Of a stretch of DNA of 64,000 nt, positions 31,936 through 58,150 are shown in pieces. Position numbers and translations under genes: made by a program. This DNA is from Mimachlamys varia (Eukaryota; Mollusca; Bivalvia; Pectinida; Pectinidae), in assembly GCA_947623455.1 (NCBI GenBank), contig OX392527.1, positions 47,350,401 to 47,414,400 of the forward strand, written 5' to 3'. The notes under the pieces are model-generated. The model was given only the letters and a program-made list of their open reading frames with translations, was not told the origin of the DNA and searched no databases. Within the stretch, counting starts at the first letter, position 1, and the number at the start of each line of letters is the position of its first letter.

Positions 31936-34900
31936 CTGTTGATGTATAAAAGTTAATACATTCTCTGTGGTGTTACACACTTAAATCTCCCTAGCTACTA
32001 CAACATACCGGTATACCAATGGGTGCTCACAGTACAAAGAGTCTAGCTTAGGGCTGGGCGGTTTTACTAGTATACTGTGGTATGAAGTTGTGATGGTACA
32101 TACAGTGGTACATTAGCCCTGTATCGTTTTTTTGGGGACTTTCATTTAACTTATGAAAGAACTTTTTGCTACATAGATCAATTGGAATTCCAATATGGTT
32201 TAATTATGATTTCAATCTGATTAAAATACAGATCCTCACTAATACTATCGTGTGTAGGATCTGACAGCGACCAGTAGAAGTTCATGTGCAGATGACCTTT
32301 ATTATTTCCATATCTAGGAAATGAACAGCCAATCAAAATGCACCTTGTAAATGGTGTTTGGTAGACGAACAAAAATGGCAGCGGATCGAAGGAAAGATGA
32401 GAAAATCATTTAGGGCGTTATATACCAATTCGATTAGTATTTTGTGATAATTTCTTTGCCTTCAGTTATTATTTCTGTTTGGATGAACAAAAAAATACAA
32501 ATCAAACAGATAATGTCTACGCCTTGGCGTACAGACTGCTGAACTGAACGCCGCCATTTTTGTATATGGTCATTTGGGTTTCTCGCTACTTTGCTCTGGT
32601 TTAACGACAAGTGTAGAAACAAATCGAAATTAGCTTTTCATTTTCAGAATCTGGTAAGCAGCGATTTGATTGGTGAATACAAAGGTCATCTGCACATGAC
32701 CTTCTACTGGTCGCTGTCAGATCCTACACACGATAGTAATAGTGAGGATCAGTATTTTAATCAGATTGTTATGATTTCATATAAGATTGCTGTCAACTAG
32801 GACTGACTTAGTTTCATTCAAACAATGTAAGACTTAGAGGATAACACAAAGAGAAACTTATGTCAGACCTCTTGTTGATTTGCTTCAGAACAAAAAACAG
32901 CCAGAGACCTTTAGCTAGCTCAAAAACTCAATCAAGGTGGTATACTGTGGTATGTACTGCAGTATTTGCCTAAATACTGTGGTACTTTTTGTTTTGTGGT
33001 ACCCAGCTCTAGTCTAGCTTGCTGAATATTTTCAAGTATATATATACAATACTATTAATGCAGATATAATTTTGTTTTTGTTGTACATGTATTAAGTTTT
33101 ACATCCTATTAACAGCAAAGGTCATTATAAGGACAACCTCTCTGTGTATGCAATGTGAATATATTTCAGGGACCCATGGCCAGTAGCCAATGGCCCTTAA
33201 AAATTGTCTGGGCCTGGAGATTTTCAGAACTTTTGCCATTGATTTATTAATACGGTATTGCAACTTCTCTGTTGAAATAAGCTTGGCCCCTACCTCGAAA
33301 CAGTGATTTATATTCCCTGCAATGTACATGTATTTTGGAGGCTGTGGTATGTTTGTGAAAATCTCCTTGTGCTAGTTCAAATCTCAAGGAAGCTTACGTG
33401 CCATAACAGAAGTCATCACAGAAGTGAGCTCATATATATTTTTGTGTGGATGGAGAATAAGATATAGACAATTTAAGATCATTTAAACGTAAAAAACAGA
33501 ACTTCATGGGTGACTGGAAATCAAATTGTTGCAATTCTATTAATTAATGGAACAAACAATTCCAATCAAAATAGTTTCCATTGTAATCTCTGCATACTCA
33601 CCAATTAGATCAACAAACTTGTAGTCCCCTGTGTGTAGACCAGCTTTCTCGGTCCCCACGCCAATCATGACTGAGGTCCCATTAGGGGGTTCAAGGAATG
33701 TCACTTCCCAGTAGTGCTCGCCATCAGTAAACCCCTTGGTGCCCCGCACACCTGAAAGGAAGAGTACGCCCATTAAATTTCATGTACAATCTCACTTCTT
33801 TACTTGACTATTATGTTTTCTTTTTAAAAATCAAGCTATGAGCTTATCACGTTACTTCTTCTTTCTGTCACTTGGACTGGACTGTTTCATACAGTAAAAC
33901 TCGGCCCTTTGGATAAAAGGTCAAATTAAACCTTATATTAAACTATATATATATACTGTACAAATTATTTCAAAATTCATAAATCTATGCTGTTTGATTC
34001 TTTGGACTTGGATTTTTAAATAATTTCTACCGATAAAAGGTAAATTTGAGATGTACAATACCATTGCTTCCGGGACAAAGATGCCAGAATTATTGTATGT
34101 CATTTATGCAAGTTAAGAAAGGGTTCATCTTAAGGAATTTTATTGAAATGCATCCGAAAATTACTTTAACAGAACTGAATGTCTTATTAAAGCATATATC
34201 GAACTTGCCAATATTTTTAGGCTTGACTTTCATATATGAGGTACGTAGGATTCTTTTTTGTTGGGGGTACACTTTTCAAAATATTTATCCCAAAATTGAA
34301 CTAGCATGCAAATTACAAAAAAAATGATCGATCTGCTTGAACATTCACATTAAGTCAACATGTATAATACTAATACAATGAAGAATAATATTAATGTGCC
34401 TGTGTGCGACAGGAAAGTGCATTTCTGCATTCCATTTCATGTGCACTACAAATGAAAGAAATGCAGCAGTTTAATTAAAAACATAGGTTATAAAAAAAAC
34501 CACAAACATCACTTAAACAATACTCATCCTTCATAATAAACATTACCTCCGAACTACTACACAATCTATTTATTGTATAATATGTTCCCGAGTTTGTGAT
34601 CAGAACCGGGATTTCGAAGCCTCTCATGGTTGCCTCCCTTTTTTGATCTCATTCACCTGTAATACAAACCATTGCAAGTACAAAGGAAAAAGTGCTTCCG
34701 GACAAAAAGTATGCCAGAAGGTTTAAAAAAAAATTAAAAAAGTGTTTTCCTACTGCTAAAACCATGTGAAGCTAACAAAAAATATCACTAAAAGGCTTTT
34801 AAATGATGTTATACACTTTCAATTTGTAAACAAAAAATTTTAATATAAGAACATTTCTATATATTTAGATTCAGCGTTTAACAGTACTTCATAAGTACTA

Positions 34901-37908: not shown

Positions 37909-37958
37909 ATGTATTATGACCAGGGCGGAATGGAATACGAATTGGAAGAAGATAAGCT
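37909..37958 (+). CDS. PICK1: PICK1 exon 1 (first alternative)
   Basis: ATG then MYYDQGGMEYELEEDK plus two bases; donor gtatgt. The ELEEDKL end matches the acidic N-terminus of PICK1. Confidence 0.85.
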
Positions 37959-40900
37959 GTATGTTCATAAATATATTTAGAAGCTATATAGTTCTTCGAA
38001 AGTATTTAATATCGACACTACATTTAACTGCAGCTTCATGAGCTTGGCAGCTGCCAAAATAATTTTGACAGGAATAAGGCCTATTATAATCCTCTTGTTC
38101 CCGATTTGTGTTTTTTCCCTCTTTGCTATTTATATATCTATTTCCCTGTCTTTCAATACCCATGCCCATTTTGTTTTCCATGCATATAGAGACCTGTCCC
38201 AAAATTTATTTATTTCATTGATGTCTATATATCAAATCAAAGACCGGGTAATGATGTTTATTGAAGCATGACAATTTAACCCACCCACGTGACTTACAAA
38301 CGTTTACATGTTTTTGCCAGAAGGCCGACAGTACATATGTGACGTGGCGAGGAGTCACATCTGTTGGAAGTCTATGAAATACATAATGTTTGTTTGACTT
38401 CAGACTTGTAAACTAAAGTGAAACGTGTCAAGCATGACCTGCTGAGTACAGCTGTTGCACAAACAGAGAATTCTAGATGTTGTGTGAAAGAAAAATTGCA
38501 TGTGGTTAAAGTTTTGGGAAACTACTACAGGTTCTCATGGGTGATTCTAAAGACTATGAATATGATTTAATTCCTACGTTTGATCCAGATGAATATGACT
38601 CTGATGAAGGTCGATATCAATCATTTTATGAGGAAGATCGCATGTGAGTTTACAAATTGTAATGATGAATGCAAAATTTGCAAATGATTACCTTTTCCAT
38701 GATTCAAATAAACTTTTTGTGGAATATTCATTACAGTGATAATTAATTACCTGGTAATTGTCAATCTTTATATCTTTGTTGTTTTAATTTGGGGTTTATG
38801 TCGTGATATACCATGTGAATTACTGTCACTGATCACATGACTATCTATATAGGCAGCATCTGGAGCTTGGAGGTCCTACATTCAAATTCAAGTCTTGTAA
38901 TATAAAAGTGGTGCCAGTGAACTTAACCAAATTAAACCTTGTTTCAATGTAATTACCTTATTTGATTCCGAATTCCCTTACCCGTAATCATCATTTTTGA
39001 TGGAGGGTGTATGTTCAAAGAAGAAGATCTAGAAGAGAAGAAGAAATAAGCCTCCCTCTAGTGTTTATGTGTTTTAAGTGAAGCCTTGGTTGTAAACAGT
39101 TTTATCTTGATAAGTGAATGTTCAACATATGCACCTTGTATTGACAACTGATGAGTGGAGCACTTTTGACTCTGTAACAGGAGAGGGAAAATACATGGCC
39201 AGACTGGGATTCAAACCCAGGAACTCTCGATCAACGCTTAGCTATCTTGTCACTGATGATCAACCCAGTCCAGTTCCGCTACATTCCTCCCTCCTGTTTC
39301 TATGTCTTCGTCCAGAAGACAACTATTTACTACCCAGGTTTGGGTATTCCTTTGCCAGGCATACATGTATATACACCAAATGCTTGGAACAAGATTTGGT
39401 CACATGTACCACTGAAACAGTAGAGAGAAAATGCAAGGCCAAACCAGGGTTTTAACCAGACCATCCAAACTCTAGAAAGATGCACAACTTATTGAGCTAC
39501 ATATATCTAGTCGTTGATGATTGTCCAAATAATCCCAGTCCAGTTCTGTTACATTTCAACAATTTTTTTTCCCTTAAAGTTAAACAGCCTCTCTTAGAGA
39601 GACAGGACAGTTTGTTTTCATGTCATTTTAACAAATTTTACTACCATATACAAGTTTTTATTAAAGTATTTTCATATGGATCCAGTGTTTTGAGCAGGTT
39701 ACATACACTCATTAGATCAGTTTGCATCAATCAAATAAAGGTGGTTATTGATGCACAATTATAACAATGAAACCCAACAACACAATTTGTAAATTATAAA
39801 ATCTCTAGACTGGCAAAAATTCAAAATTTAATGATGAGCAATCAGCAATTTAAAGTTAAAAAAATCAATTCACAGGGGTTCTTTCATTGTGAGAAGGTAT
39901 GTATACCTTAATTACATATAGTGTAGGAAGATACTGGGCACATATAATAGTCTGGTATTGGGTATTGATATATCAATTTAGTGTTTACTTTGATAGTAGA
40001 GTATCTATTGTCTACTGTATAGAAGTGTTAGTCTGTTTTAGCCCACTGGTTTATAGGTCTTTTCCAAAAGTGTTGTTTTCCGCCTCGATACGCCACATTA
40101 GTGGATAAAAGATGGACTTAAGCTTCCGGGAAGTGTTTTTGTGATGATTTGGCACCATGTGACAATCGGTTGATGTAATTCCCATTATGAACGTCACACT
40201 TACATATAATATACAAGCAATTGACCCCCTCCCTATGCAATCATCTAGTGTTACTTCTTACGATCTATTAATCAAACATGCCTACTCCAAAAAAAAGTTT
40301 GTTCAAAATTAAACAAACCAACTTAAATGTACTCTAAAAATACCTAATCTATAACAATTTACGATTTTAAAATTCATTTTTCTATTGTATAGTAATATCA
40401 TTCACCATTATGTAGACCAATTCACCACAGGGTGCATGTCAAATCCAGTGTCTTTAAAAGCAAAAACCTCAAAAATATCCTAAATTCATTATGTTAAACT
40501 TTATGTAACCCGATTACTTATTTGATTATCAAATGGGTCCGACGAACCAATTCTTACCGATGATCAATTACAAGTTTTAATTTATTTTTTTTCTTTTGAC
40601 ATCTGAATGATGTTAGCTAATAAGATTGAAGGTGGTTGTTTTTAAATCATTACACTATTGCATTGGGTATCTTTTCTCTCATACATTTTTTATGGTATCC
40701 CTCAGAATGATATGGTTTAGGGTCCCTACAACTCTTTGATTGGATGGAGTTTCCATCATGCTCCATTTCCATTCTCCTGACATTTTAGTGTGTTGGTATA
40801 ATGAAAACAGCATTTGATATAATATCGTATGTAGGCATGCAGCTAGGGTGATTAAGAGAAAAGGGACAAACTAAGCAGGGTACCGTAAGCAATCGCAACA

Positions 40901-43900
40901 AGCTCAGGATACTCGTGTCTTTCCCAATAGGTATAAACTAGGGTGACTAGTGACTATTTGAGCACAAATTTACCATCGCGATAGTCAGAATTACTATGAC
41001 GATAGTATTGTGAAAATGACAAACTGTTGCGATAGTATTGTGATAGTTATATATATTGATACCCAAAATAAATAAAATATTGTACTAAAAACTACATAAG
41101 TACCTTCATTTACTAAATTGAGGACAAAATATTTACCGGTATCTTGTTAGTCCATTTAAGTTTGCATAATGAGTATTTGTACTTATAATTGTATTATTCA
41201 ATAAAGTGTTTTCATATTAACCAACAACATTAAAACTTCTTTATGATTATTTGTTTAAATGATGCCATTTAGGTAATAAACTACTTCTGATGAAACGATC
41301 GATACTATTGCAATAGTCACATATACCATTGTGATTGTCAATTTCAATGCCATTTTACTATTGCGATAGAACTATTGAATGGTACACGATTGCGATGCAT
41401 CGATAGTGTGATGCATTGTTTCACCCCTACTATAAATGGTACTTCATTTTGTATACCTACAGGTCTACAGGTCACAGCTGTGTACCTTCATGATCAGGTA
41501 CCCACATGTACCTGATCCAAAACAAAAAATTTAGCATAGATCCTATATTCTTTATATGGATACATGCAAGAGAGGAACTTACCCCATCCGTGATTGAAGC
41601 CATGAGCTCTCATCACCCAGTGATCAATTTACAATTTATTTTCATGAGTCCTTTTTGTACACATTGATGAAAACGATGGGTTCCTCAATGTTAAATTGAA
41701 GCATTTCCAGAATTTCTACGAGTCCTTTCATAATTTCATGAGTACTGGACTCGGGACATCGCATGTAGATTGATCACTGCATCCACTCTGAACATGTCAG
41801 AGATATAGGTACTATTGACTATAAAGCCTTGCGATAAATTTATATAAAAATTTGTATCAAACTCTATGATATGCCTACAGGGCTTAATCACCCCTCTTTT
41901 CAAGTTCGATAAACGGACCCATTCCCAATGAAAAAAAGTGTGATTTTCCCCAAATTTTCTCTTGAAAATTCCCAATTCAGACTTTTGAAAAAGATTTGGT
42001 GGTTTTACATGCTTGAGAAGCTTCTTGTCACATTAAGTTAAATAAGGAACAAGAAAGATGGGCTGTAAATGTCATATTGACAGTGCTTTAAATAGTAATT
42101 TAGAAAAGAAATAATGTACATGTATTTAGTTGTTACAACAGTCTTGTAAAAATTCCCCAAATAGCTGTTATGTCGATCAATTTTTCCCAATTTGATCTCG
42201 GGTCCAATTCCCAAAACCCCCTGATAAAGCCCTGGCCTAGTTGGACGATTTAATTTCAAGAAACAGGACTTGCTAGCTAGTATTAATTAAGAGACTGTAC
42301 ATGTGTTGATTTCTTTGATTCTTATATACAGTGTTTCATAATCTTGTAGAATGTCATAAGACAACAATAGTCTATATATGCAGCATATGCCCACATTTTA
42401 TGTACTTTAGGTGATGATTTTTTCCAATGTTTGCTGTTCTGATGAAGCCCATTACGTGGGCAGCCCTAGTCTACCGGTATATATTATAAAGTAACAAACA
42501 CCGTATCCAGAGATTGTTGCGATTTCTTATGCTGCTTAACAATATTTTTAGCTGCGATAGCATTAATTGACTAAAAATGGGAACACTTTCCATAAAAAGT
42601 TGAATAATGTTTACATGTAAATATCTTTTGTTGGGCAGATTGGTCAAATGATTTACTTTATAACCAGGGTTTGATCGCTAGTATGTACATGTAAGTAATA
42701 CTCTCTGAAAGTGTTTGTCTCGAGCTCCTTCCCACACAACTTCACCAAGCCAGATGAATTGTAAGACGGTCTGGGTTGTGGGTGTTGCAGTATCTGGGCT
42801 GTAGCATTCAATTGAAGTGGCATTATACTGGTAGATGATGCTGTTGGAAGCACAGTCCCATTACAAACTGAACACAACACATCTCCAGCACCACCGCAAA
42901 CTTGCATATACCCAGTATAGGGAGATATTAGCCAGTATAGGGAGATATTAGCCAGTATAGGGAGATATTAGCCAGTATAGGGAGATATTAGCCAGTATAG
43001 GGAGATATTAGCCAGTATAGGGAGATATTAGCCAGTATAGGGAGATATTAGCCAGTATAGGGAGATATTAGCCAGTATAGGGAGATATTAGCCAGTATAG
43101 GGAGATATTAGCCAGTATAGGGAGATATTAGCCAGTATAGGGAGATATTAGCCAGTATAGGGAGATATTAGCCAGTATAGGGAGATATTAGCCGAGTTGC
43201 GTAGTACTAGTAGTTGGAACCTAATAAGGCAGCCCATGCAAATTTCTCTTAACTGTATCAACAAAATGTTAATTAAGTTAACTGTATTAATATAGGGCTA
43301 TAGGCTATTGATCTGAACGTTAACAAACCAATGTTGGTTGGAGATGTGTTATGTAATATACAAATTGTGTGCCTACATACTGCAAATGCAATAGAGTAGC
43401 TTATTCTAGCTAGAAAGAATTCTGTATTAAATATTTTGTATAACATGTAGCCTATCATTATTCAATCTGATGGTAGAACAGCTGTACATGTGCATGCCTA
43501 CAAAGAGTTATTCAAAAGAAACTTTTGCTTTGACAGGGGTATGAGAGTAACATCTGGTAGTATAGTATTGAAGAAGGATGCCCAAAACCTGATCGGGATC
43601 AGTATAGGGGGTGGAGCACCTCTCTGTCCATGTCTCTACGTCGTCCAGATATTCGACAACACCCCTGCCGCCAAGGACGCCACCCTGGCCTCGGGGGACG
43701 AGATAACTGGTGTGAACGGGCAGTCGGCCAAGGGCAAGAGTAAAGTGGAGGTCGCCAAAATGATACAGTCCATATCTGTAAGTCAAAAGTTGAGAGATTT
43801 ACATGTAGGTAGTTTGATTTATTCTTATGACAAAAACATTAGCAAGTTCTGTAAAATATAATTCAAAATTTAAACCTTTCATTTTCATGAACACTTCTTA

Positions 43901-46900
43901 TGACATTATAATCAGTATGTGTGAAGTTAAATATGTGTTTATTACATTTTCAGGAAGAAGTAACTATCAACTATAATAAATTACACGCAGATCCAAAGCA
44001 AGGAAAATCTCTTGATATAGGTAAGTACAGCAAAATGTCCTTGATCCCGCTCAGATATGATAAATTTTAAGGTTGTATTTTTATCAAACCTTTGTCAACT
44101 ATTTGAATTCATTATTAATTGAAAAATGTTATTTCGTGTTGTATGCAATATTTAAGAAAAAGTGCCATCAGTATTTAATAAATACCCGGTACTATTTATT
44201 TGTCAGTATTACCTCTTGTATGTAAGAAAAGCATTTTGATATACTATTAGTGTAGTACATAATAATTATGTTTATCATATAACTGACCCCTTTAGTCATG
44301 TCATATGGCTGTGTTATAATATAAATGTGGTGTTACACCTGTGTAATAACACTATTGTGATGCCATAAACAAATGACGTCTTTATGATGTTATATGATCG
44401 TCTCAGTGGTGAAAATCGTACAGCCCGGGGTCAGCCCGAAGTAGAGTTGCCTTCTTTATTAAGAAATGAATTTGAGAGTTTTAGTGTATTCTCTCCTGAA
44501 TATAAGTTGTGATAAATATAATTTTACACTATGGTCAATTATTGTGGTCAATGTAAAATGGAATTTATTAAACTCATTAATTAATTTCAGTGGTCACTTG
44601 CCTGCAGGACATATCAAATTATTGAACGAGCTTGATTAACTCCATATTACATTTGACTGGACACTAATGTAAGATCCTCTATGTATTTATCATAGCCTAA
44701 AGTGTAAAATTCATGTCAGTTCAGTACTTAAATATTCAAAACACTATATGTTTTGATTACAGTAGAAGAGTCTACTGTTACAACTTGAAAATACCGATGT
44801 GGAAGCATTGTCATGATCAGATGTTATCTTCAATGTATACATTGTATGTCATGGTCTGTTTTGATTTTGTTGCAGTTTTAAAGAAAGTGAAACATCGTGT
44901 GGTGGAGACAATGAATACAAACACAGCTGATGCCCTAGGTCTCAGTAGGGCTATCTTATGTAATGGTGAGTGTTATGTACTGTCATCATTGCCATGTTTA
45001 TGAAATAACATTATTTACTCGTTAAACCCTAAAATGTTCACAAAAAAGTATTCAAACCTTTGAACTGAAGAGTTCAAATTTGTCTTCAGGAGTGAATGAG
45101 TTTTAGAGATTTCAAGCTCACCTGAAACAAGTTGATAGCTGTTTGGTCAATTCTCCTTCCTCCACAATCAAGTTTTCATGAAATATCTTCTTTAGAACCA
45201 TAAGGCTTGGAGTCAGAATAATTTTATGTAGCTTCTGTAATAGAGCTTCTAAGCTATCAGATTGTTTAGACTATTACCGCAATGAGTATCATAGGGGCAG
45301 GTGTGTGAAAAATATCATATCACTTTCTACAGAACCATGTTAATATGTATACCAGTATGTACATATATGTATTGTATAAGACCCAATATCAAGATAATCG
45401 GTTGATAAAGGGCCAGATATGGAAATGGCCATGTAATATTCCCTATGTAATAGATTCATTGCAAACATTGACTTATTATTTGGTGTTATCCATATAGACA
45501 TTTCAATGAGAAATATTGACGACATCATCTAATATATTTTTCTATATTTGATGTTTTTTTCTCAGATGGATTAGTTAAGAAGTTAGAAGAATTAGAGAAG
45601 ACAGCTGACATGTATAAAGGGTTGATTGATCAGACGAAGAAGTTACTCAAGTCAACATTTGAGCTTTCACAGTCCCACAAGGGTGAGTATATATAGCACA
45701 TCCCAAGTTACTCAAATGTGAGTATCTATAGCACATCCCAAGTTACTCAAGTCAACATTTGAACTGTCACAGTCCCACAAGGGTGCGTATCTATAGCACA
45801 TCCCAAGTTACTCAAGTGTAAGTATCTATAGCACATCCCAATATACTCAAGTCAACATTTGAGTTGTCACAGTCTCACAAGGGTGAGTATCTATAGCACA
45901 TCCCAAGTTACTCAAGTCAACATTTGAGTTGTCACAGTTTCACAAGTGTGAGTATCTATAGCACATCCCAAGTTACTCAAGTCAACATTTGAGTTGTCAC
46001 AGTCCCACAAGAGTGAGTATCTATAGCACATCCCAAGTTACTCAAGTCAACATTTGAGCTGTCACAGTCTCACAAGGGTGAGTATCTATAGCACATCCCA
46101 AGTTACTCAAGTCTACGTTTGAGTTGTCACAGTCCCACAAGGGTGAGTATCTATAGCACATCCCAAGTTACTCAAATGTGAATATCTATATCACATCCCA
46201 AGTTACTCAAGTCAACATTTGAGTTGTCACAGTCCCACAAGTGTGAGTATCTATAGCACATCCCAAGTTACTCAAATGTGAGTATCTATAGCACATCCCA
46301 AGTTACTCAAATGTGAGTATCTATAGCACATCCCAAGTTACTCAAGTCTACGTTTGAGTTGTCACAGTTTCACAAGTGTGAGTATCTATAGCACATCCCA
46401 AGTTACTCAAGTCTACGTTTGAGTTGTCACAGTCCCACAAGGGTGAGTATCTATAGCACATCCCAAGTTACTTAAGTCTACGTTTGAGTTGTCACAGTCT
46501 CACAAGGGTGAGTATCTATAGCACATCCCAAGTTACTTAAGTCTACGTTTGAGCTGTCACAGTCTCACAAGTGTGAGTATCTATATCACATCCCAAGTTA
46601 CTTAAGTCTACGTTTGAGCTGTCACAGTCTCACAAGGGTGAGTATCTATAGCACATACCAAGTTACTTAAGTCAACATTTGAGCTGTCAGTCTCACAAGT
46701 GTGAGTATCGATAGCACATCCCAAGTTACTCAAATCAACGTTTGAGCTGTCGCAGTCTCACAAGGGTGAGTATCTATAGCAGATCCCAAGTTACTTAAGT
46801 CTACGTTTGAGCTGTCAGTCTCACAAGGGTGAGTATCTATAGCACAACCCAAGTTACTTAAGTCAACATTTGAGTTGTCACAGTCTCACAAGGGTGAGTA

Positions 46901-49900
46901 TCTATAGCACAACCCAAGTTACTCGAGTCTACGTTTGAGTTGTCACAGTCTCACAAGTGTGAGTATCGATAGCACAACCCAAGTTACTCAAATCAACTTT
47001 TGAACTGTCACAGTCCCACAAGGGTGCGTATCTATATCACATCCCAAGTTACTCAAATCAACTTTTGAACTGTCACAGTCTCACAAATGTGAGTATCTAT
47101 AGCACATCCCAAGTTACTTAAGTCAACATTTGAGCTGTCATACTCCCACAAGAGTGAGTATCGATAGCACATCCCAAGTTACTCAAGTCAACATTTGAGT
47201 TGTCACAGTCCCACAAGGGTGCGTATCTATAGCACATCCCAAGTTACTTAAGTCAACATTTGAGTTGTCACAGTCTCACAAGGGTGAGTATCTATAGCAC
47301 ATCCCAAGTTACTCAAGTCAACATTTGAGTTGTCACAGTCTCACAAGGGTGGGTATCTATAGCACATCCCAAGTTACTCAAGTCAACATTTGAGTTGTCA
47401 CAGTTTCACAAGTGTGAGTATCTATAGCACATCCCAAGTTACTCAAGTCAACATTTGAGTTGTCACAGTCCCACAAGAGTGAGTATCTATAGCACATCCC
47501 AAGTTACTCAAGTCAACATTTGAGCTGTCACAGTCTCACAAGGGTGAGTATCTATAGCACATCCCAAGTTACTCAAGTCTACGTTTGAGTTGTCACAGTC
47601 CCACAAGTGTGTGTATCTATAGCACATCCCAAGTTACTCAAATGTGAATATCTATATCACATCCCAAGTTACTCAAGTCAACATTTGAGTTGTCACAGTC
47701 CCACAAGTGTGAGTATCTATATCACATCCCAAGTTACTCAAATGTGAGTATCTATAGCACATCCCAAGTTACTCAAATGTGAGTATCTATAGCACATCCC
47801 AAGTTACTCAAGTCTATGTTTGAGTTGTCACAGTCTCACAAGGGTGAGTATCTATAGCACATACCAAGTTACTCAAGTCTACGTTTGAGTTGTCACAGTC
47901 CCACAAGGGTGAGTATCTATAGCACATCCCAAGTTACTTAAGTCTACGTTTGAGTTGTCACAGTCTCACAAGGGTGAGTATCTATATCACATCCCAAGTT
48001 ACTTAAGTCTACGTTTGAGTTGTCACAGTCTCACAAGTGTGAGTATCTATATCACATCCCAAGTTACTTAAGTCTACGTTTGAGCTGTCACAGTCTCACA
48101 AGGGTGAGTATCTTTAGTACATACCAAGTTACTTAAGTCAACATTTGAGCTGTCAGTCTCACAAGTGTGAGTATCGATAGCACATCCCAAGTTACTCAAA
48201 TCAACGTTTGAGCTGTCGCAGTCTCACAAGGGTGAGTATCTATAGCAGATCCCAAGTTACTTAAGTCTACGTTTGAGCTGTCAGTCTCACAAGAGTGAGT
48301 ATCTATAGCACAACCCAAGTTACTCAAGTCTACGTTTGAGTTGTCACAGTCTCACAAGGGTGAGTATCTATAGCACATACCAAGTTAGTCAAATCAATAT
48401 TTCAGCTGTCACAGTCTGATCACAAGGGTGAGTATCTATAGCACATCCTAAGTTACTCAAGTCAACATTTGAGTTGTCACAGTCCCACAAGGGTGCGTAT
48501 CTATAGCACATCCCAAGTTACTTAAGTCAACATTTGAGCTGTCAGTCTCACAAGTGTGAGTATCGATAGCACAACCCAAGTTACTCAAATCAACTTTTGA
48601 ACTGTCACAGTCCCACAAGGGTGCGTATCTATATCACATCCCAAGTTACTCAAATCAACTTTTGAACTGTCACAGTCTCACAAATGTGAGTATCTATAGC
48701 ACATCCCAAGTTACTTAAGTCAACATTTGAGCTGTCATACTCCCACAAGAGTGAGTATCGATAGCACATCCCAAGTTACTTAAGTCAACATTTTTGTTGT
48801 CACAGTCCCACAAGGGTGCGTATCTATAGCACATCCCAAGTTACTTAAGTCAACATTTGAGTTGTCACAGTCTCACAAGGGTGAGTATCTATAGCACATC
48901 CCAAGTTACTCAAGTCAACATTTGAGTTGTCACAGTCTCACAAGGGTGGGTATCTATAGCACATCCCAAGTTACTCAAGTCAACATTTGAGTTGTCACAG
49001 TTTCACAAGTGTGAGTATCTATAGCACATCCCAAGTTACTCAAGTCAACATTTGAGTTGTCACAGTCCCACAAGAGTGAGTATCTATAGCACATCCCAAG
49101 TTACTCAAGTCTACGTTTGAGTTGTCACAGTCCCACAAGTGTGAGTATCTATAGCACATCCCAAGTTACTCAAATGTGAATATCTATATCACATCCCAAG
49201 TTACTCAAGTCAACATTTGAGTTGTCACAGTCCCACAAGTGTGAGTATCTATAGCACATCCCAAGTTACTCAAATGTGAGTATCTATAGCACATCCCAAG
49301 TTACTCAAATGTGAGTATCTATAGCACATCCCAAGTTACTCAAGTCTATGTTTGAGTTGTCACAGTCTCACAAGGGTGAGTATCTATAGCACATACCAAG
49401 TTACTCAAGTCTACGTTTGAGTTGTCACAGTCCCACAAGGGTGAGTATCTATAGCACATCCCAAGTTACTTAAGTCTACGTTTGAGTTGTCACAGTCTCA
49501 CAAGGGTGAGTATCTATAGCACATCCCAAGTTACTTAAGTCTACGTTTGAGTTGTCACAGTCTCACAAGTGTGAGTATCGATAGCACATCCCAAGTTACT
49601 CAAATCAACGTTTGAGCTGTCGCAGTCTCACAAGGGTGAGTATCTATAGCAGATCCCAAGTTACTTAAGTCTACGTTTGAGCTGTCAGTCTCACAAGTGT
49701 GAGTATCTATAGCACATCCCAAGTTACTCGAGTCTACGTTTGAGTTGTCACAGTCTCACAAGGGTGAGTATCTATAGCACATCCTAAGTTACTCAAGTCA
49801 ACATTTGAGTTGTCACAGTCCCACAAGGGTGCGTATCTATAGCACATCCCAAGTTACTTAAGTCAACATTTGAGCTGTCAGTCTCACAAGTGTGAGTATC

Positions 49901-52900
49901 GATAGCACAACCCAAGTTACTCAAATCAACTTTTGAACTGTCACAGTCCCACAAGGGTGCGTATCTATATCACATCCCAAGTTACTCAAATCAACTTTTG
50001 AACTGTCACAGTCTCACAAATGTGAGTATCTATAGCACATCCCAAGTTACTCAAATCAACTTTTGAACTGTCACAGTCCCACAAGGGTGATATCTATAGC
50101 ACATCCCAAGTTACTTAAGTCAACATTTGAGTTGTCACAGTCTCACAAGGGTGAGTATCTATAGCACATCCCAAGTTACTCAAGTCAACATTTGAGTTGT
50201 CACAGTCTCACAAGGGTGGGTATCTATAGCACATCCCAAGTTACTCAAGTCAACATTTGAGTTGTCACAGTTTCACAAGTGTGAGTATCTATAGCACATC
50301 CCAAGTTACTCAAGTCAACATTTGAGTTGTCACAGTCCCACAAGAGTGAGTATCTATAGCACATCCCAAGTTACTCAAGTCAACATTTGAGCTGTCACAG
50401 TCTCACAAGGGTGAGTATCTATAGCACATCCCAAGTTACTCAAGTCTACGTTTGAGTTGTCACAGTCCCACAAGTGTGAGTATCTATAGCACATCCCAAG
50501 TTACTCAAATGTGAATATCTATATCACATCCCAAGTTACTCAAGTCAACATTTGAGTTGTCACAGTCCCACAAGTGTGAGTATCTATAGCACATCCCAAG
50601 TTACTCAAATGTGAGTATCTATAGCACATCCCAAGTTACTCAAATGTGAGTGTCTATAGCACATCCCAAGTTACTCAAGTCTATGTTTGAGTTGTCACAG
50701 TCCCACAAGTGTGAGTATCTATAGCACATCCCAAGTTACTCAAATGTGAATATCTATATCACATCCCAAGTTACTCAAGTCAACATTTGAGTTGTCACAG
50801 TCCCACAAGTGTGAGTATCTATATCACATCCCAAGTTATTCAAATGTGAGTATCTATAGCACATCCCAAGTTACTCAAATGTGAGTATCTATAGCACATC
50901 CCAAGTTACTCAAGTCTATGTTTGAGTTGTCACAGTCTCACAAGGGTGAGTATCTATAGCACATCCCAAGTTACTTAAGTCTACGTTTGAATTGTCACAG
51001 TCTCACAAGGGTGAGTATCTATAGCACATACCAAGTTACTCAAGTCTACGTTTGAGTTGTCACAGTCCCACAAGGGTGAGTATCTATAGCACATCCCAAG
51101 TTACTTAAGTCTACGTTTGAGTTGTCACAGTCTCACAAGGGTGAGTATCTATATCACATCCCAAGTTACTTAAGTCTACGTTTGAGTTGTCACAGTCTCA
51201 CAAGTGTGAGTATCTATATCACATCCCAAGTTACTTAAGTCTACGTTTGAGCTGTCACAGTCTCACAAGGGTGAGTATCTATAGCACATACCAAGTTACT
51301 TAAGTCAACATTTGAGCTGTCAGTCTCACAAGTGTGAGTATCGATAGCACATCCCAAGTTACTCAAATCAACGTTTGAGCTGTCGCAGTCTCACAAGGGT
51401 GAGTATCTATAGCAGATCCCAAGTTACTTAAGTCTAAGTTTGAGCTGTCAGTCCCACAAGAGTGAGTATCTATAGCACATACCAAGTTAGTCAAATCAAT
51501 ATTTCAGCTGTCACAGTCTGATCACAAGGGTGAGTATCTATAGCACATCCTAAGTTACTCAAGTCAACATTTGAGTTGTCACAGTCCCACAAGGATGCGT
51601 ATCTATAGCACATCCCAAGTTACTTAAGTCAACATTTGAGCTGTCAGTCTCACAAGTGTGAGTATCGATAGCACAACCCAAGTTACTCAAATCAACTTTT
51701 GAACTGTCACAGTCCCACAAGGGTGCGTATCTATATCACATCCCAAGTTACTCAAATCAACTTTTGAACTGTCACAGTCCCACAAATGTGAGTATCTATA
51801 GCACATCCCAAGTTACTTAAGTCAACATTTGAGCTGTCATACTCCCACAAGAGTGAGTATCGATAGCACATCCCAAGTTACTCAAGTCAACATTTGAGTT
51901 GTCACAGTCCCACAAGGGTGCGTATCTATAGCACATCCCAAGTTACTTAAGTCAACATTTGAGTTGTCACAGTCTCACAAGGGTGAGTATCTATAGCACA
52001 TCCCAAGTTACTCAAGTCAACATTTGAGTTGTCACAGTCTCACAAGGGTGGGTATCTATAGCACATCCCAAGTTACTCAAGTCAACATTTGAGTTGTCAC
52101 AGTTTCACAAGTGTGAGTATCTATAGCACATCCCAAGTTACTCAAGTCAACATTTGAGTTGTCACAGTCCCACAAGAGTGAGTATCTATAGCACATCCCA
52201 AGTTACTCAAGTCAACATTTGAGCTGTCACAGTCTCACAAGGGTGAGTATCTATAGCACATCCCAAGTTACTCAAGTCTACGTTTGAGTTGTCACAGTCC
52301 CACAAGTGTGAGTATCTATAGCACATCCCAAGTTACTCAAATGTGAATATCTATATCACATCCCAAGTTACTCAAGTCAACATTTGAGTTGTCACAGTCC
52401 CACAAGTGTGAGTATCTATATCACATCCCAAGTTATTCAAATGTGAGTATCTATAGCACATCCCAAGTTACTCAAATGTGAGTATCTATAGCACATCCCA
52501 AGTTACTCAAGTCTATGTTTGAGTTGTCACAGTCTCACAAGGGTGAGTATCTATAGCACATACCAAGTTACTCAAGTCTACGTTTGAGTTGTCACAGTCC
52601 CACAAGGGTGAGTATCTATAGCACATCCCAAGTTACTTAAGTCTACGTTTGAGTTGTCACAGTCTCACAAGTTTGAGTATCGATAGCACATCCCAAGTTA
52701 CTCAAATCAACGTTTGAGCTGTCGCAGTCTCACAAGGGTGAGTATCTATAGCAGATCCCAAGTTACTTAAGTCTACGTTTGAGCTGTCAGTCTCACAAGT
52801 GTGAGTATCGATAGCACAACCCAAGTTACTCGAGTCTACGTTTGAGTTGTCACAGTCTCACAAGGGTGCGTATCTATAGCACATACCAAGTTAGTCAAAT

Positions 52901-55900
52901 CAATATTTCAGCTGTCACAGTCTGATCACAAGGGTGAGTATCTATAGCACATCCTAAGTTACTCAAGTCAACATTTGAGTTGTCACAGTCCCACAAGGGT
53001 GCGTATCTATAGCACATCCCAAGTTACTTAAGTCAACATTTGAGCTGTCAGTCTCACAAGTGTGAGTATCGATAGCACAACCCAAGTTACTCAAATCAAC
53101 TTTTGAACTGTCACAGTCCCACAAGGGTGCGTATCTATATCACATCCCAAGTTACTCAAATCAACTTTTGAACTGTCACAGTCTCACAAATGTGAGTATC
53201 TATAGCACATCCCAAGTTACTTAAGTCAACATTTGAGCTGTCATACTCCCACAAGAGTGAGTATCTATAGCACATCCCAAGTTACTCAAGTCAACATTTG
53301 AGTTGTCACAGTCCCACAAGGGTGCGTATCTATAGCACATCCCAAGTTACTTAAGTCAACATTTGAGCTGTCACAGTCCCACAAGTGTGAGTATCTATAG
53401 CACATCCCAAGTTACTTAAGTCTACGTTTGAGTTGTCACAGTTTCACAAGTGTGAGTATCTATAGCACATACCAAGTTACTTAAGTCAACATTTGAGCTG
53501 TCACAGTCTCACAAATGTGAGTATCTATAGCACATCCCAAGTTACTTAAGTCTACGTTTGAGTTGTCACAGTCTCACAAGTGTGAGTATATATAGCACAT
53601 CCCAAGTTACTTAAGTCAACATTTGAGCTGTCACAGTCTCACAAGTGTGAGTATCTATATCACATCCCAAGTTACTTAAGTCAACATTTGAGCTGTCACA
53701 GTCTCACAAGGGTGAGTATCTATATCACATCCCAAGTTACTTAAGTCAACATTTGAGCTGTCACAGTCCCACAAGTATGAGTATCTATATCACATCCCAA
53801 GTTACTTAAGTCTACGTTTGAGTTGTCACAGTTTCACAAGTGTGAGTATCTATAGCACATACCAAGTTACTTAAGTCAACATTTGAGCTGTCACAGTCCC
53901 ACACGGGTGAGTATCTATAGCACATACCAAGTTACTCAAGTCAACATTTGAACTGTCACAGTCTCAGAAGTGTGAGTATGTTAATATCACATATCCCACC
54001 ATCATCACTGCCCAGTCATTTAAAGGGAAGCCACACTGCAAACAATTCCACTTTTACAGTATGTAACTTTATACTGAAACTGGTCAGCTCTGTCCAGGCA
54101 ATAGAACTTGATTGTAAGAAATAGACCAAATGGAACATCATTTTCCATGTTAATATTTGATAATGAAAATCCTCTTTTGATTTTTTTCCAGCCTTTGGAG
54201 AGGTGTTTTCGGGAATTGGAGTTCGTGAACCCCAGCCTGCAGCCAGTGAAGCTTTCAGCATGTTTGGGGAAGCACATCGCAACATGGAGAAGTTCGCTAT
54301 CAAGATGCTAAAAACAGCAAAACCAGTAAGAAGTTTTTTACATCTTTTCTGAAAAGGCCCTAAATTAAAAAAGAAAAATTTGAGAGGAAAAGATTTCACA
54401 GGAAAATAATTTTTACCATCTAAGTGGACAGCTGGGGTGAAATTAAATCATTGAGAAAGTGACATCTATAACAGTGTCCATAAATTTCTGTGTTCCCAAT
54501 ATTAAAGTTAAAACAAATTTGGTTTGTCTCATAATTATTACTTTACTGCTACTTACAGTGATGTTTAAAGGCCCAATATAAGTAAATTCAGGGAAATTTT
54601 TCAAAGTTCTGAAAAATTATGAAAAAATTCCAGTTGATAACCATGCAAAAATAAGTCTTAAACGAAGTAAACTTGAGCGGTAACTAACAAGAAACTCTTG
54701 ACATGACAAAAAAAATCCAAAGAATTGAAAATAATTCAGGTGTGGCCCACTTCAACAACAAGCTGAAGGTAGAAGACAGTTCAAAATGGAAGCGTGTTTC
54801 AACTAGTGTAGTGCTGTTGTACCGGTAGCAGTTAATCTTAACTAAATCTATAAATATAATAAGTTATTAGGCTTGATTTTCACTTCACGTTTTGCCCAAA
54901 GTTACATATATTGGGACTTAAAGACTTTATATTGACATTTTAATGGCAAAGCCACTATATAAGCTTAACCGGGGAGACGTGCGATTTAAGACGCAATAAA
55001 CGACACTCAGCGTGTGACGTTTATGACCTCATTGTTTTGGCATAGAAATGGCGACAGGTCGCTGTCAAAATGGCTCATCCATTTTACAATTTAATATGTT
55101 GATATTGAAGTATTTATCATAGTCTAAATCAAATTGAAATCAGTTTAAGTTAGCAACATGGAAATGAAATGTAAATATAAGCATTGAAGTGTCTTGATAA
55201 GGTCTTTATGATTGTAATAAATAATAAAACTTTGCTCTGTCATTTATATCGACCATAAAGACCATTTCAAGACTCTTCAATGCATAAGTACCATATTTTA
55301 CCATAAATAAGTCGTCCTCTCTTGCAACTCTCTCTCTCCTGTGGCAAAAGTTTATGAGTTTAACATGAAAATGGCTAGAGATACTTAATTTGTTTTTAGT
55401 ATTCTGCCAAAAGAGGTGATACAGCATTTTATAAATTATGTAATTGCTATGATATGTGTAATGATTTTTTAATTACAATAATATTTCTGTTGTTGCCTGT
55501 CTTTAATGTAACATCCATTCTGTCCTACAGATGATAAGTGACCTCAACACATACCTACACAAAGCTGTACCAGACACGAGACTTACCATAAAGAAATACC
55601 TGGATGTCAAGTTTGAGTACCTGGTAAGTATCCAGATTTACACAAGCCCTAATTTGTTTTGGGTAAATTTATGATTTATATGCTTACAAGCTGTCCAAGG
55701 TTTTCTAGTGGTGTTTCTAATTTGGCCTCAAATCTCATTACAAAAATAGTGCAATTGTAATGTATTTGAATTGAATTATCTTTTAAATTTTGTTCAGTAT
55801 GAAAATTTAGTTTTAGTTTCTCATGCATGTTCTATAGAGATATAAGTTTTTTTTTTTTTTTTAAAGTGAGGGTACTGTAAACGTAGAATTGTTCGCTGTG

Positions 55901-57934
55901 TGGAAATTTTGGCTTATTTCGCTTTCATTAAATACTCGCAAATATAACCACAGGCGAACATTTTCAACACCACTCAACTCTACAATGTACACGGTGCAAA
56001 ACAGCATAACTGGTAGTGCAAAAATATCGACACGGCCAACAGTTTAGAGGCTGACTAAGTGAAAAATTCCAAGCGTGAATATATTGACTTTTACAATAAT
56101 TGTAAGTTCTTTGTTTACAACAAAATAATACTTCAGTGATTCTTCACAATATCGGCATCACAGTTGATTGAATACAAATATACATACTTATCTACCCTAG
56201 TGGGCCCTGCCACTCTGACTCCAGCCCACTGTTTATACAAAATTGAGTCCCCTTCACCGAAGGATGCATATGAGCATATTTGGACAAAATACGACCTTGA
56301 CCTACTTTCAAGGCTACAGGGGTCATCTTGGTTCTCTGTTCTCAATTTGAATGATCAATATTCACAAAATTGTTTCTATTTGACAGGCGTACTGTCTAAA
56401 GGTGAAGGAGATGGACGACGAGGAATACAGCTATGCAGCATTACAGGAGCCGCTGTACAGAGTTGAAACAGGGAACTATGAGTACAGGTAAGTACTATGG
56501 TTACAAGACCTGTTGTATTAGTGGAAACAGGGAACTATGAATACAGGTAAGTATTGTGGTTACAGGACCTGCTGTATTAGTGGAAACAGGGAACTATGAA
56601 TACAGGTAAGTACTATGGTTACAAGACCTGTTGTATTAGTGGAAACAGGGAACTATGAATACAGGTAAGTATTGTGGTTACAGGACCTGCTGTATTAGTT
56701 GAAACAGGGAAATGTGAATACAGGTAAGTACTGTGGTTACAGGACCTGCTGTATTAGTTGAAACAGTGAAATATGAATACAGGTAAGTACTGTGGTAACA
56801 GGACCTGCTGTATTAGTTGAAACAGGAAATTATGAGTACAGGTAGTGTAAAAGAACGAGGAAAAGTGATAAAGATAGTGCTGTCCCTGGGGCTTGAATCC
56901 GCAACCCTTAGCTCTCCTGCCCGATGCTCTACTGACTGAGCTAAAGGAAATTCCCTACAGCTCATGCTTTTAAGGCAACCTAATCAGTTCACATCTTTTA
57001 CGTAAGTACTGTGATATATGGTAATGTATTTAGTGGAAACGGGGAACTATGAGTGTAGCTTTGGCATGTTGTAAAATCAGAGATTGGGTTTTTGCAGGAA
57101 TTATCAAAGAGAAATTTGTATCCTTTTTCAGGTTAGTGTTACGCTGTCGACAGGACGCCCGACAAAGATTTGCCAAAATGAGAGCTGATGTTCTAGTCAA
57201 GATGGAACTGCTGGACCAGAAACATGGTCAGTAACTCTATGACGTTAGTCCTTATTTTGAAAATAAATTATTTTAAAAGAAGATGACACTATAAGCAAGA
57301 TCTTTTTCTTTTAATTGCACTTCAATTTTTAATAAAAGAGATATTCTATTGTTTATTTATTTCATATCAGTTTTAGTTTAGGTAATGCAGATATCATAAA
57401 TGAATTTTGTTTTAAGATAACTTTCAGTATATAAAATTTTGATGATTTAAATGAAGATACAGTAAAACCCACTTACTCAAACAGTTGGTTTTGTCCCGAC
57501 TGAGTTCGTACACATTCAACCAACCTCAGATTACTTGAATACCATGTATTTCTCAAACTATTGATTAGGTCCCCATGAGTTAGAGTAAGTGGGGCTTTAT
57601 TGTAAATGGAAAATATATAAACAGATTTTGATAAATGGGAAATAAAAACTGGATGTTGTTCTGTTGTTCTGTTCCAGTCCAGGACATCGTGTTCCAGCTA
57701 CAGCGATTTGTTTCTGCAATGGCTAAGTATCACAACGACTGCCATTCGGTTATGAAGAAGGCTGTGGTGTTCCCTATAGAGGTGGATCTGTCCCGCGGCA
57801 CATTCACATACGACACTTCAAACCAGTTCAACGATGAGGAAGAGGAGGAGGAGGAAGATGGAGTCGAGGGTACCGTGGAAACGGGAATGGAGGCGGGAGT
57901 CACGGAGACTAACGACCTTATCAGTACTGATTGA
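37909..57934 (+). CDS. PICK1: PICK1 (protein interacting with C kinase 1), PDZ-BAR protein, 414 aa
   Basis: Peripheral membrane scaffold that binds receptor and transporter C-termini through its PDZ domain and curved membranes through its BAR domain, working in endocytic and vesicle trafficking. Ten coding exons: 37909-37958, 43537-43777, 43954-44020, 44876-44965, 45566-45682, 54192-54325, 55531-55623, 56387-56487, 57132-57226 and 57678-57934; 1245 nt in phase, about the length of the human protein. The PDZ (about residues 20-105) has the loop NLIGISIGGG and DEITGVNGQSAKGK. The BAR region (about 145-355) includes VLKKVKHRVVETMN, GIGVREPQPAASEAF, PDTRLTIKKYLDVKFEYL and KMELLDQKHVQDIVFQLQRF. 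The tail is acidic (DEEEEEEED). Exons 5, 8 and 10 have tandem repeats growing from their 3' ends. A second first exon is at 38537. Confidence 0.96.
38537..38643 (+). CDS. PICK1: PICK1 exon 1b (candidate alternative first exon)
   Basis: ATG then MGDSKDYEYDLIPTFDPDEY and an acidic stretch ending YEEDR, 35 codons plus two bases, donor gtgagt. It ends in the same phase as exon 1, so splicing to exon 2 gives EEDRMGMRV in place of EEDKLGMRV and a 433-aa protein. It is either an alternative promoter or a mutually exclusive exon. Supported by phase and composition only. Confidence 0.65.
39114..39560 (-). repeat. Two tandem tRNA-like SINE copies (PICK1 intron 1)
   Basis: Two related segments (39114-39300 and about 39400-39560) share GAAAATACATGGCC-like and GATGATCAACCCAGTCCAGTT-like blocks. 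Read on the minus strand the first contains GGGTTTGAATCCC, a B-box-like sequence. Confidence 0.5.
40931..41437. mobile_element. hAT-like MITE (PICK1 intron 1)
   Basis: Element 40939-41429 with ends TAGGGTGA / TAGGGGTGAAAC, imperfect 8-bp flanks GTATAAAC and CTATAAAT, and many subterminal CGATAGTATTG motifs in both orientations. Confidence 0.5.
41873..42241. mobile_element. MITE with CAGGGCTT ends
   Basis: About 41878-42236, ends CAGGGCTTAATC and GATAAAGCCCTG, flanked by GCCTA on both sides. Confidence 0.45.
42630..43250 (+). repeat. tRNA-derived SINE, copy 2, expanded
   Basis: Diverged copy of the SINE at 8150-8520. The segment ATAGGGAGATATTA has expanded inside it into a perfect 20-bp array. 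Confidence 0.6.
42912..43193 (+). repeat. 20-bp perfect tandem array, 14 copies
   Basis: Unit GCCAGTATAGGGAGATATTA with no visible variant, so a recent expansion. Confidence 0.95.
43537..43777 (+). CDS. PICK1: PICK1 exon 2 (PDZ)
   Basis: Acceptor tttgacag, donor gtaagt. Encodes GMRVTSGSIVLKKDAQNL through KVEVAKMIQSIS. Confidence 0.95.
43954..44020 (+). CDS. PICK1: PICK1 exon 3
   Basis: Acceptor ttttcag, donor gtaagt. EEVTINYNKLHADPKQGKSL; end of PDZ and linker. Confidence 0.95.
44021..44875. other. PICK1: PICK1 intron 3
   Basis: No repeat or coding frame recognised. Confidence 0.5.
44876..44965 (+). CDS. PICK1: PICK1 exon 4
   Basis: Acceptor gttgcag, donor gtgagt. VLKKVKHRVVETMNTNTADA, start of the BAR region. 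Confidence 0.95.
45566..45682 (+). CDS. PICK1: PICK1 exon 5
   Basis: Acceptor ttctcag, donor G|GTGAGTAT. DGLVKKLEELEKTADMYKGL through STFELSQSHK. Its last ~43 bases (from 45640) are the founder of the intron 5 minisatellite. Confidence 0.95.
45640..53985 (+). repeat. PICK1: Minisatellite derived from the end of PICK1 exon 5 and its splice donor
   Basis: Unit of about 65 bp: AAGTTACTCAAGTCAACATT, then TGAGTTGTCACAGTCCCACA, AGGGTGAGTATCTATAGCAC, ATCCC. The first unit is the real exon 5 end and donor, and the remaining roughly 120-130 units fill intron 5. Nearly every unit keeps a GTGAGTAT donor. A shorter ~35-bp variant arose by deletion between CAA repeats. Shared private variants (AGTCTGATCACAAGG at about 48414, 51518 and 52919; GGGTGGGTATC at about 47346, 48951, 50215 and 52047) reveal higher-order duplications of 1.2-1.8 kb. 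In the exon 5 frame each unit meets TAG soon after the donor. Confidence 0.95.
54192..54325 (+). CDS. PICK1: PICK1 exon 6
   Basis: Acceptor tttccag, donor gtaaga. FGEVFSGIGVREPQPAASEA through MLKTAKP. An 8.5-kb intron separates it from exon 5. Confidence 0.95.
54565..54921 (+). mobile_element. MITE with TTAA target duplications, copy 3 (PICK1 intron 6)
   Basis: Element 54569-54917, same family as 22162-22534, with TTAA at both ends and a slightly damaged right terminus (TTGGGAC). Confidence 0.65.
54922..55530. other. PICK1: PICK1 intron 6, remainder
   Basis: No further feature recognised. Confidence 0.45.
55531..55623 (+). CDS. PICK1: PICK1 exon 7
   Basis: Acceptor cctacag, donor gtaagt. 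MISDLNTYLHKAVPDTRLTI to KFEYL. Confidence 0.95.
55624..56386. other. PICK1: PICK1 intron 7
   Basis: AT-rich, a T-run near 55848; an ORF of 100 codons overlapping exon 8 in another frame is incidental. Confidence 0.45.
56387..56487 (+). CDS. PICK1: PICK1 exon 8
   Basis: Acceptor ttgacag, donor CAG|GTAAGTA. AYCLKVKEMDDEEYSYAALQ through GNYEYR. Its end is the founder of a 59-bp repeat. Confidence 0.95.
56462..57060 (+). repeat. PICK1: 59-bp tandem repeat derived from the end of PICK1 exon 8 and its donor
   Basis: The founder unit spans the exon 8 end (GAAACAGGGAACTATGAGTA, CAG) and donor GTAAGTACTATGG. Copies start near 56462, 56521, 56580, 56639, 56698, 56757 and 56816, with a partial one near 57035 beyond an inserted tRNA-like element. 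Most keep CAG|GTAAGTA. Confidence 0.92.
56844..57003 (-). repeat. tRNA-like element inserted in the exon 8-derived repeat
   Basis: On the minus strand: A-box-like TAGCTCAGTCAGTAGAG and B-box-like GATTCAAGCCC, but no closing acceptor stem. Its ends (GTGTAAAAGA / TCTTTTACGTA) are imperfect inverted repeats. Confidence 0.5.
57132..57226 (+). CDS. PICK1: PICK1 exon 9
   Basis: Acceptor tttttcag, donor GTCAGT (weaker). LVLRCRQDARQRFAKMRADV to DQKH. Confidence 0.94.
57459..57604 (-). mobile_element. Tc1/mariner-like MITE (PICK1 intron 9)
   Basis: 146 bp, ends TACAGTAAAACCCACTTACT and AGTAAGTGGGGCTTTATTGT; inverted relative to 62174-62348. Confidence 0.65.
57678..57934 (+). CDS. PICK1: PICK1 exon 10 (last)
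   Basis: Acceptor gttccag, stop TGA 57932-57934. QDIVFQLQRFVSAMAKYHND through the acidic DEEEEEEEDG tail to NDLISTD. An AATAAA at 58203-58208 is a candidate polyadenylation signal. Confidence 0.95.
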
Positions 57935-58150
57935 GGGTCAGGGGCATAGGGGAGAAAAGGGGTAAAAGGGAAGGAGGGTACCGCAGAAACGGGAATGGAG
58001 GCGGGAGTCACGGAGACTAACGACCTTATCAGTACTGATTGAGGGTCAGTTGGGGTTAAAGGGTGGTAAAAAGTAGGGGGTTGAGGGTACTGTGGAAACG
58101 GGAATGGAGGTGGAAGTCACAGAGGCTAAGGACCTTATCAGTAGGTTTAA
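57866..58150 (+). repeat. PICK1: ~108-bp repeat of the PICK1 coding end and stop codon, three copies
   Basis: GAGGGTACCG...GGAAACGGGAATGGAGG...ACCTTATCAGTA starts at 57866, 57974 and 58083. Copy 1 is coding; copy 2 repeats the in-frame end with TGATTGAGGGTCAG; copy 3 is diverged and truncated. Copies 2 and 3 are in the 3' UTR. Confidence 0.9.

Follow-up and report, generated by a model that had tools for sequence, protein, structure and literature searches.

A stretch of 64,000 nucleotides from the scallop Mimachlamys varia (contig OX392527.1, called C1 below, positions 47,350,401 to 47,414,400 of the forward strand; hereafter the window) contains the PICK1 gene, whose intron 5 (8509 nt) carries a long tandem array, array 1, built from the end of exon 5 and the start of the intron. 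When joined, the PICK1 exons give a complete open frame of 414 amino acids (433 with the alternative first exon) with GT-AG borders. The product shows PDZ and Arfaptin domains, its best solved-structure matches are PICK1 PDZ chains, and it is 95-97% identical to scallop PRKCA-binding proteins, which bears out the gene name given in a preliminary description of this DNA. Mizuhopecten isoforms match both first exons, and the peptide at the end of exon 5, KLLKSTFELSQSHK, is unchanged in the Mizuhopecten, Pecten and Argopecten proteins that were fetched. An Rfam scan of positions 36000-64000 gave 0 matches. The gene and its main array show the following features:

37909..57935, + strand: PICK1 gene, recognised by its joined open frames, PDZ and Arfaptin domains and identity with scallop proteins
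37909-37958 and 38537-38643, + strand: alternative first exons 1a and 1b
43537-43777, 43954-44020 and 44876-44965, + strand: exons 2, 3 and 4
45566..45682, + strand: exon 5; its final 43 nt (45640-45682, KLLKSTFELSQSHK plus G) supply the exonic portion of each full unit
45640..53990, + strand: array 1, with 138 tandem units, decayed higher-order repeats of ~1.3-1.8 kb and GT at the donor position in 135/138
45683..45696, + strand: true donor GTGAGT and the in-frame TAG (45694-45696) reached on read-through
54192..54325, + strand: exon 6, with the top pyrimidine score at its acceptor (815 AG sites scored between 45700 and 54200)
55531-55623 and 57132-57226, + strand: exons 7 and 9
56387..56487, + strand: exon 8, the source of a second array (array 2)
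57678-57935, + strand: exon 10, which ends at the stop codon

The units of array 1 differ in length: 101 have 65 bp, 20 have 35 bp, 12 have 63 bp, three have 68 bp, and one each has 64 and 62 bp. The main unit consists of the final 43 nt of exon 5 followed by 22 nt of intron start, and since unit 1 is the exon 5 end itself, there are 137 further whole or shortened copies. The 35-bp units lack most of the exon part through a 30-nt deletion, while the 63-bp units show a frame-breaking 2-nt deletion. The preliminary description had placed the array in PICK1, with its end at 53985, and had correctly recognised a unit of about 43 exon bases plus the intron start; its figure of about 120-130 tandem units after the true donor is replaced by the 137 further copies counted here. 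Unit sequences fall into 63 distinct types, and the longest run of identical units is seven. At a higher level, larger blocks are repeated, four of them 1.3-1.8 kb long, with 86-96% identity in the best alignments. Among the 101 units of 65 bp, GTGAGTAT varies hardly at all outside its fourth base. A search of the 975-Mb genome (975,302,275 bases) with the exon 5/array-start sequence gave 21 matches, all inside array 1; the search skips very common words, and such match counts are lower bounds. An 8.3-kb array of such similar units is hard to assemble, yet it is hardly credible that it is an assembly artefact, given the HiFi reads, 44-fold coverage and quality value (QV) of 64.4 stated for this assembly in the available part of PMC11252643, and a diversity of units unlike a simple collapse or slip.

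The true donor of exon 5 is CACAAGG/GTGAGT, at 45683. The hexamer GTGAGT is found in 108 of the 138 units, GTGCGT in 14, GTGAAT in six, GTGGGT in four, and GTAAGT and GTGTGT in one each, so the earlier wording that nearly all units keep an intact GTGAGT was too strong. The GT itself stands in the fixed register in 134/138 units, and the 64-bp unit at 50044 adds one in a shifted register. According to calculated U1 duplex energies, 41/137 copies pair with U1 as well as or better than unit 1. Read-through past the true donor gives ...SQSHKGEYI*, in agreement with the in-frame TAG that had been announced for the use of a later donor. On the acceptor side, the best AG inside the array has a pyrimidine fraction of 0.71 vs 0.88 at the true exon 6 acceptor and is not the in-frame one; among the AG sites scored, the units show no in-frame pyrimidine-rich acceptor.

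These donors could form a splicing regulator or a U1 sink, with U1 contested among the copies or splicing diverted towards mRNA that has a premature termination codon, and with PICK1 dose set by array length. The conservation of GT, the U1 pairing and the TAG met on read-through agree with such a role, as does a donor-associated variable number tandem repeat (VNTR) in intron 18 of human ABCA7, which includes the exon 18 donor and has alleles of up to 9711 bp: one-unit retention is reported there at 2 +/- 1%, and longer alleles show more exon 19 skipping and lower expression (PMC5954066, in part). However, the same portions of that source report that retention does not vary with VNTR length and that no effect of length was observed on nonsense-mediated decay (NMD). 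In amphioxus, repeats of exon-intron boundaries are reported, in the sections available, not to disturb regular splicing (RT-PCR, PMC3087553; also PMC3902484). Furthermore, exchange of sequence with the exon would also preserve the donors, and array 2 of the same gene has only six copies. A regulatory role, put forward in the preliminary description, is judged rather improbable.

Constraint on the copies was analyzed in the exon-derived 42 nt of the 101 units of 65 bp, and not in the 37 units that differ in length. In the PICK1 frame, mean diversity at codon positions 1, 2, and 3 is 0.045, 0.020, and 0.196, respectively, and each of the seven variants shared by 12 or more units is synonymous. 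The proportions of synonymous and nonsynonymous differences (pS and pN) are 0.352 and 0.018, with a pN/pS of 0.051, while the two other forward frames give 1.1 and 4.7. None of 20,000 frequency-matched randomisations attained the observed synonymous share, at each of three transition weights. Variants found in at least eight units are synonymous in eight cases and nonsynonymous in one, compared with two and ten among rarer variants (Fisher P 0.002). The adjoining intron part serves as a built-in control: for CAT CCC, the codon pair that would be gained by an in-frame splice, pS is 0.015 and pN 0.074. The almost wholly synonymous variation ends at the exon border, and the adjoining intron part is not constrained in this way. 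The mostly synonymous nature of the common differences among full-length copies points to a likely continuing exchange of sequence between these copies and the real exon.

Direct selection would act on each copy if the units were translated as in-frame cassette exons, with a TATAG acceptor before CACATCCC and a phase-1 donor, adding 17 residues per 65-bp unit. The TATAG G is kept in 85/101 units and 51/65 nt would be in frame. Nevertheless, the added codons CAT CCC vary nonsynonymously, the best in-array AG is weaker than the true acceptor and out of frame, and 12 units are frame-shifted. No insertion is found at this position in five PICK1 proteins from other scallop species, although those species may lack the array. 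Arrays of mutually exclusive exons of the Dscam type consist of tandem exon copies within one gene, with purifying selection on each; the units of array 1 have no credible acceptors and copy only the 3' end of an exon. A cassette-exon array, with an acceptor in every unit and selection over the whole exon, was rejected, as the scored AG sites give the units no pyrimidine-rich acceptor in frame and the adjoining in-frame codons are unconstrained. Translation of the copies is considered very unlikely.

Simulations with and without exchange between exon and array were compared, counting runs with a pS of at least 0.2 as qualifying and a pN/pS of 0.10 or less as success. In a neutral or receive-only array, nonsynonymous differences should accumulate together with synonymous ones. 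In the lineage model, success was reached in 0/32 qualifying runs with no exchange and 0/57 (34+17+6) with one-way seeding, in 1/33, 12/50, and 22/69 with two-way exchange at rising rate, and in 26/43 with direct selection on all units. In the population model with a lethal exon, the values were 0/35 with no exchange, 0/5 for exon-to-array, 1/65 for array-to-exon, and 40/59 for both directions; the closest setting gave a mean pS of 0.325 and a pN of 0.019. Earlier, smaller simulations agree in direction, yet in one of them array-to-exon conversion alone gave a ratio of 0.10-0.13, with low pS. The idea that an evolving exon seeds the array in one direction was rejected, since such seeding failed in all qualifying lineage and population runs. 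The simulations indicate what can happen, not what did happen; within them, two-way exchange or selection on every unit reproduces the coding signature best. The absence of a good in-frame acceptor from the units and the end of the constraint at the exon border make exchange preferable to direct selection.

Taken with the structure, we consider it moderately probable that array 1 is a donor-spanning minisatellite of the exon 5-intron 5 junction that likely exchanges both ways with the exon end, so that the purifying selection of the exon is predicted to act on the intronic copies. The starting point is the unit as observed, made of exon end, donor and intron start, with unit 1 being the exon. 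Its origin would be a tandem duplication across the junction, followed by growth like that of other minisatellites. Such a duplication is likely tolerated and near-harmless because the first, upstream donor still defines the exon end, whereas a copy of an acceptor would be less tolerable because it lies upstream of the real acceptor and could capture splicing. The variation and the simulations suggest that unequal exchange or gene conversion then shifts variants between unit 1 and the other units. Variants that break the protein or the GT would be lost once in the exon, while synonymous ones could grow common; with the exon under selection and unit 1 belonging to the repeat family, the family would be cleared of common protein- or GT-breaking variants. 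The first donor is predicted to be mostly used, and occasional use of a later one would add the TAG and feed NMD.

Other junction copies lie in the same gene:

56488..56841, + strand: array 2, in which the exon 8 end recurs as six 59-bp copies, with GTAAGT after five of them and GTAGTG after the last
57000..57058, + strand: a decayed further copy of the exon 8 unit (57032-57054, 91% identity), beyond an insertion
57974..58143, + strand: in the 3' flank, the end of the last exon and its stop codon region repeated as two tandem copies (57974-58042, 97%; 58077-58143, 88%)

Between array 2 and its decayed last copy, the insertion at 56865-56965 has, by eye, the look of a tRNA-derived repeat; ARAGORN found 0 tRNA genes, this insertion included. 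The next 200 kb contain, on the opposite strand, a fatty acid synthase (FAS) gene with 29 exon matches to the Mizuhopecten protein by tblastn; its exon borders were placed by script and not from RNA. The FAS exon 10 donor shows 38 copies in a 7818-nt intron and the FAS exon 24 donor shows six copies. All three differences of the exon 10 array consensus from the exon are synonymous. This array (C1:47445991-47453367, within L012) forms two blocks with ~4.7 kb of other sequence between them, and is probably a single array split by an insertion. Altogether, junction copies are found at 4/37 donors and 0/37 acceptors of PICK1 and FAS.

Genome-wide, tandem triples were counted as three exact CAGGTAAGT at 39-69 bp spacing. 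This donor motif gave 7094 matches vs 192 for its reverse-read control, while ACGGTAAGT and CAGGTAGTA gave 1177 and 1684, respectively, and the acceptor-like motif TTTGCAGGT gave 47 vs 348 for its own reverse-read control. Triple matches overlap, one long array being counted many times. Among the matches listed, the distinct arrays are 12 in 12.8 Mb for CAGGTAAGT, seven in 58.8 Mb for ACGGTAAGT (P 1.5e-5), which is itself a possible donor, and three in 15.2 Mb for CAGGTAGTA (P 0.009); the acceptor motif shows eight distinct arrays in the whole genome. Simple extrapolation from the 12 arrays would put ~900 CAGGTAAGT arrays in the genome. Arrays with the exact consensus donor are thus far commoner in the genome than those of control motifs, and those of the acceptor motif are not. 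As the share of acceptors represented by TTTGCAGGT is smaller than that of donors represented by CAGGTAAGT, part of this contrast between motifs is trivial. Motif abundance was rejected as the cause of the CAGGTAAGT excess, the reverse-read 9-mer being similarly frequent outside clusters (6 vs 5 clusters, 264 kb, a small sample). A hexamer scan of the 200 kb found composition-matched controls in tandem repeats at 3 to 12 places vs eight for GTRAGT; within the window, controls were found at 0 or 1 places vs four for GTRAGT, three of these in array 1. The short-motif scan alone shows no enrichment of GTRAGT in tandem repeats.

The upstream ends of the 12 CAGGTAAGT arrays were fetched. Two (L032 and L040) start outside the fetched stretch, and of the ten with a visible start, seven (L030, L031, L033, L036, L037, L038 and L039) lie directly after an exon-like open frame behind an acceptor, and three (L029, L034 and L035) do not. 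A domain search of six of these seven frames, with L031 left out, gave matches in three (VWC, 1.2e-7; DSL, 1.4e-5; SapB, 7e-4, below the Pfam cut-off) and none in the other three. Six fetched array bodies were read by eye, and in L041 five variants are synonymous and one is nonsynonymous. Another donor array, L045 (C1:3405900-3406600), lies at a DSL-domain exon and has 45-bp units which, by eye, can be read in frame throughout; it may represent coding repeats rather than intron. Together with array 2 and the two FAS exons, these counts show that the preliminary description, which presented a special decoy array in a single gene, was too narrow. The same process may have acted at many donors of this genome. 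More tentatively, minisatellites of this scallop could arise at splice donors throughout the genome, each array being coupled to its exon by exchange, so that the intron would come under the coding selection of the exon and return synonymous variants to it, in a concerted evolution of the exon and its own intron; we regard this wider proposal as possible and no stronger.

Several observations weigh against exchange between array 1 and its exon, and against its extension to other donors. Counted as distinct variants, only 10/21 are synonymous (P 0.005 unweighted, and 0.06 when transitions are given a weight of 4), and the frequency-weighted test is inflated by copy number. Broken or shortened exon parts are common, with the 2-nt deletion in 12 and the 30-nt deletion in 20 of the 138 units, and the former are kept although strong exchange ought to purge them. 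The base at position 43 varies strongly (57 G, 35 T and 9 A) although it falls on a first codon position of the exon, and similarity to the exon shows no relation to distance from it (Spearman -0.01, P 0.94). Among the five other haplotype readings, one reverse-strand frame also gives a low ratio (0.20), as expected because mainly third positions vary. The simulations contain free parameters and leave out indels, mean pS stays below the observed value in most two-way settings, and direct selection on all units fits equally well. As for other arrays, the evidence is mixed: the exon part of array 2 differs from exon 8 by a 1-nt gap and nonsynonymous changes, the FAS exon 10 array has a pN/pS of 0.28 (P 0.04-0.07), the other five array bodies read by eye are mixed or nonsynonymous, and 4/37 donors vs 0/37 acceptors is not significant alone (P 0.11).

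An alternative is a purely neutral minisatellite, in which the junction was duplicated and expanded within the intron by slippage and unequal exchange, with no exchange with the exon, so that the excess of synonymous variants would be due to chance or left over from a few seeding events. Tandem arrays are abundant locally, with 53 rows (some overlapping) of period at least 15 and at least four copies in the next 200 kb; the distinct-variant test gives a P of only 0.005-0.06; and no sign of coding constraint is seen in array 2 or, by eye, in several further donor arrays. Against it, the randomisations never matched the synonymous share, 0/89 lineage runs with no exchange or one-way seeding and none of the 35 population runs without exchange succeeded, and, of the forward frames, only that of PICK1 shows the signal, which stops where the exon ends. 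We hold the neutral account to be unlikely, and keep to a minisatellite in exchange with its exon.

Array 1 belongs to the mirages, minisatellite-like tandem duplications of exon-intron boundaries, since its unit spans such a border. Mirages are described, in the parts of PMC3087553 and PMC3902484 available, from the amphioxus genes for Adh3, the globins BflGb6 and BflGb9, troponin C and PGBD5, where turnover by unequal exchange and concerted evolution have been inferred. Published unit lengths are 10-72 bp in Adh3 and about 150-160 bp in the globins (PMC3087553, in part), and the 65 bp of the main unit falls inside this range. Mirages and array 1 share the border-spanning unit and splice signals kept in many units. 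They differ in size, haplotypes of amphioxus BflGb6 having 3 and 6 units and the array of this mollusc 138, and in position, with both borders involved in amphioxus but donors only among the 37 introns tested in the scallop. The coding-frame constraint on the copies and the many loci genome-wide also set the scallop apart. The ABCA7 VNTR resembles array 1 in opening with the exon's own donor GT and repeating GT; unlike array 1, its 25-bp unit begins at the GT and copies no coding part, and its effect on splicing has been measured. In the Rogers model of intron gain, tandem duplication of AGGT-containing exon sequence carries AG/GT signals, as in array 1 (PMC4974935, in part); here, however, an existing intron is lengthened and no new intron or exon is seen. 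Intron gain by AGGT duplication was rejected for array 1, because the open 414-amino-acid frame uses the first donor and the exon 6 acceptor. In literature searches that covered their sources in part, no report of such arrays in molluscs turned up, and within the same coverage neither coding-frame constraint on the copies nor a genome-wide donor bias was found described before.

The window contains other repeats and gene fragments. In PICK1 intron 1, 14.1 copies of a 20-bp unit (CCAGTATAGGGAGATATTAG) lie at 42912-43193 with 100% matches, which suggests a very recent expansion. A 30-bp unit (GTCTCCCCCTCTGTCACACCAACAACACAT) is present in 121 copies at 24097-27728; these are very rich in C on the + strand and show long open stretches of VSPSVTPTTH-like repeats with frame shifts. 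An array of ~75 copies of the 21-bp CATCATGTCACCACGTCATGT is found at 18481-20393, and a shorter array, with a unit resembling the reverse complement of this one, comes next at 20196-20393. On the - strand, a neighbouring gene divergent from PICK1 (31550-31972) has a SPRY domain as well as a SOCS-box match that falls short of the Pfam cut-off, and 863-2584 contains an integrase-type retroelement remnant with an H2C2 zinc domain and rve.

If exchange between array and exon takes place, coding selection would reach into an intron. Gene prediction and dN/dS scans would then be confused by such arrays, and synonymous change could be fed from them into exons. Donor arrays also provide natural tandem-donor series in which the choice by the spliceosome of the first among near-identical 5' splice sites can be tested.

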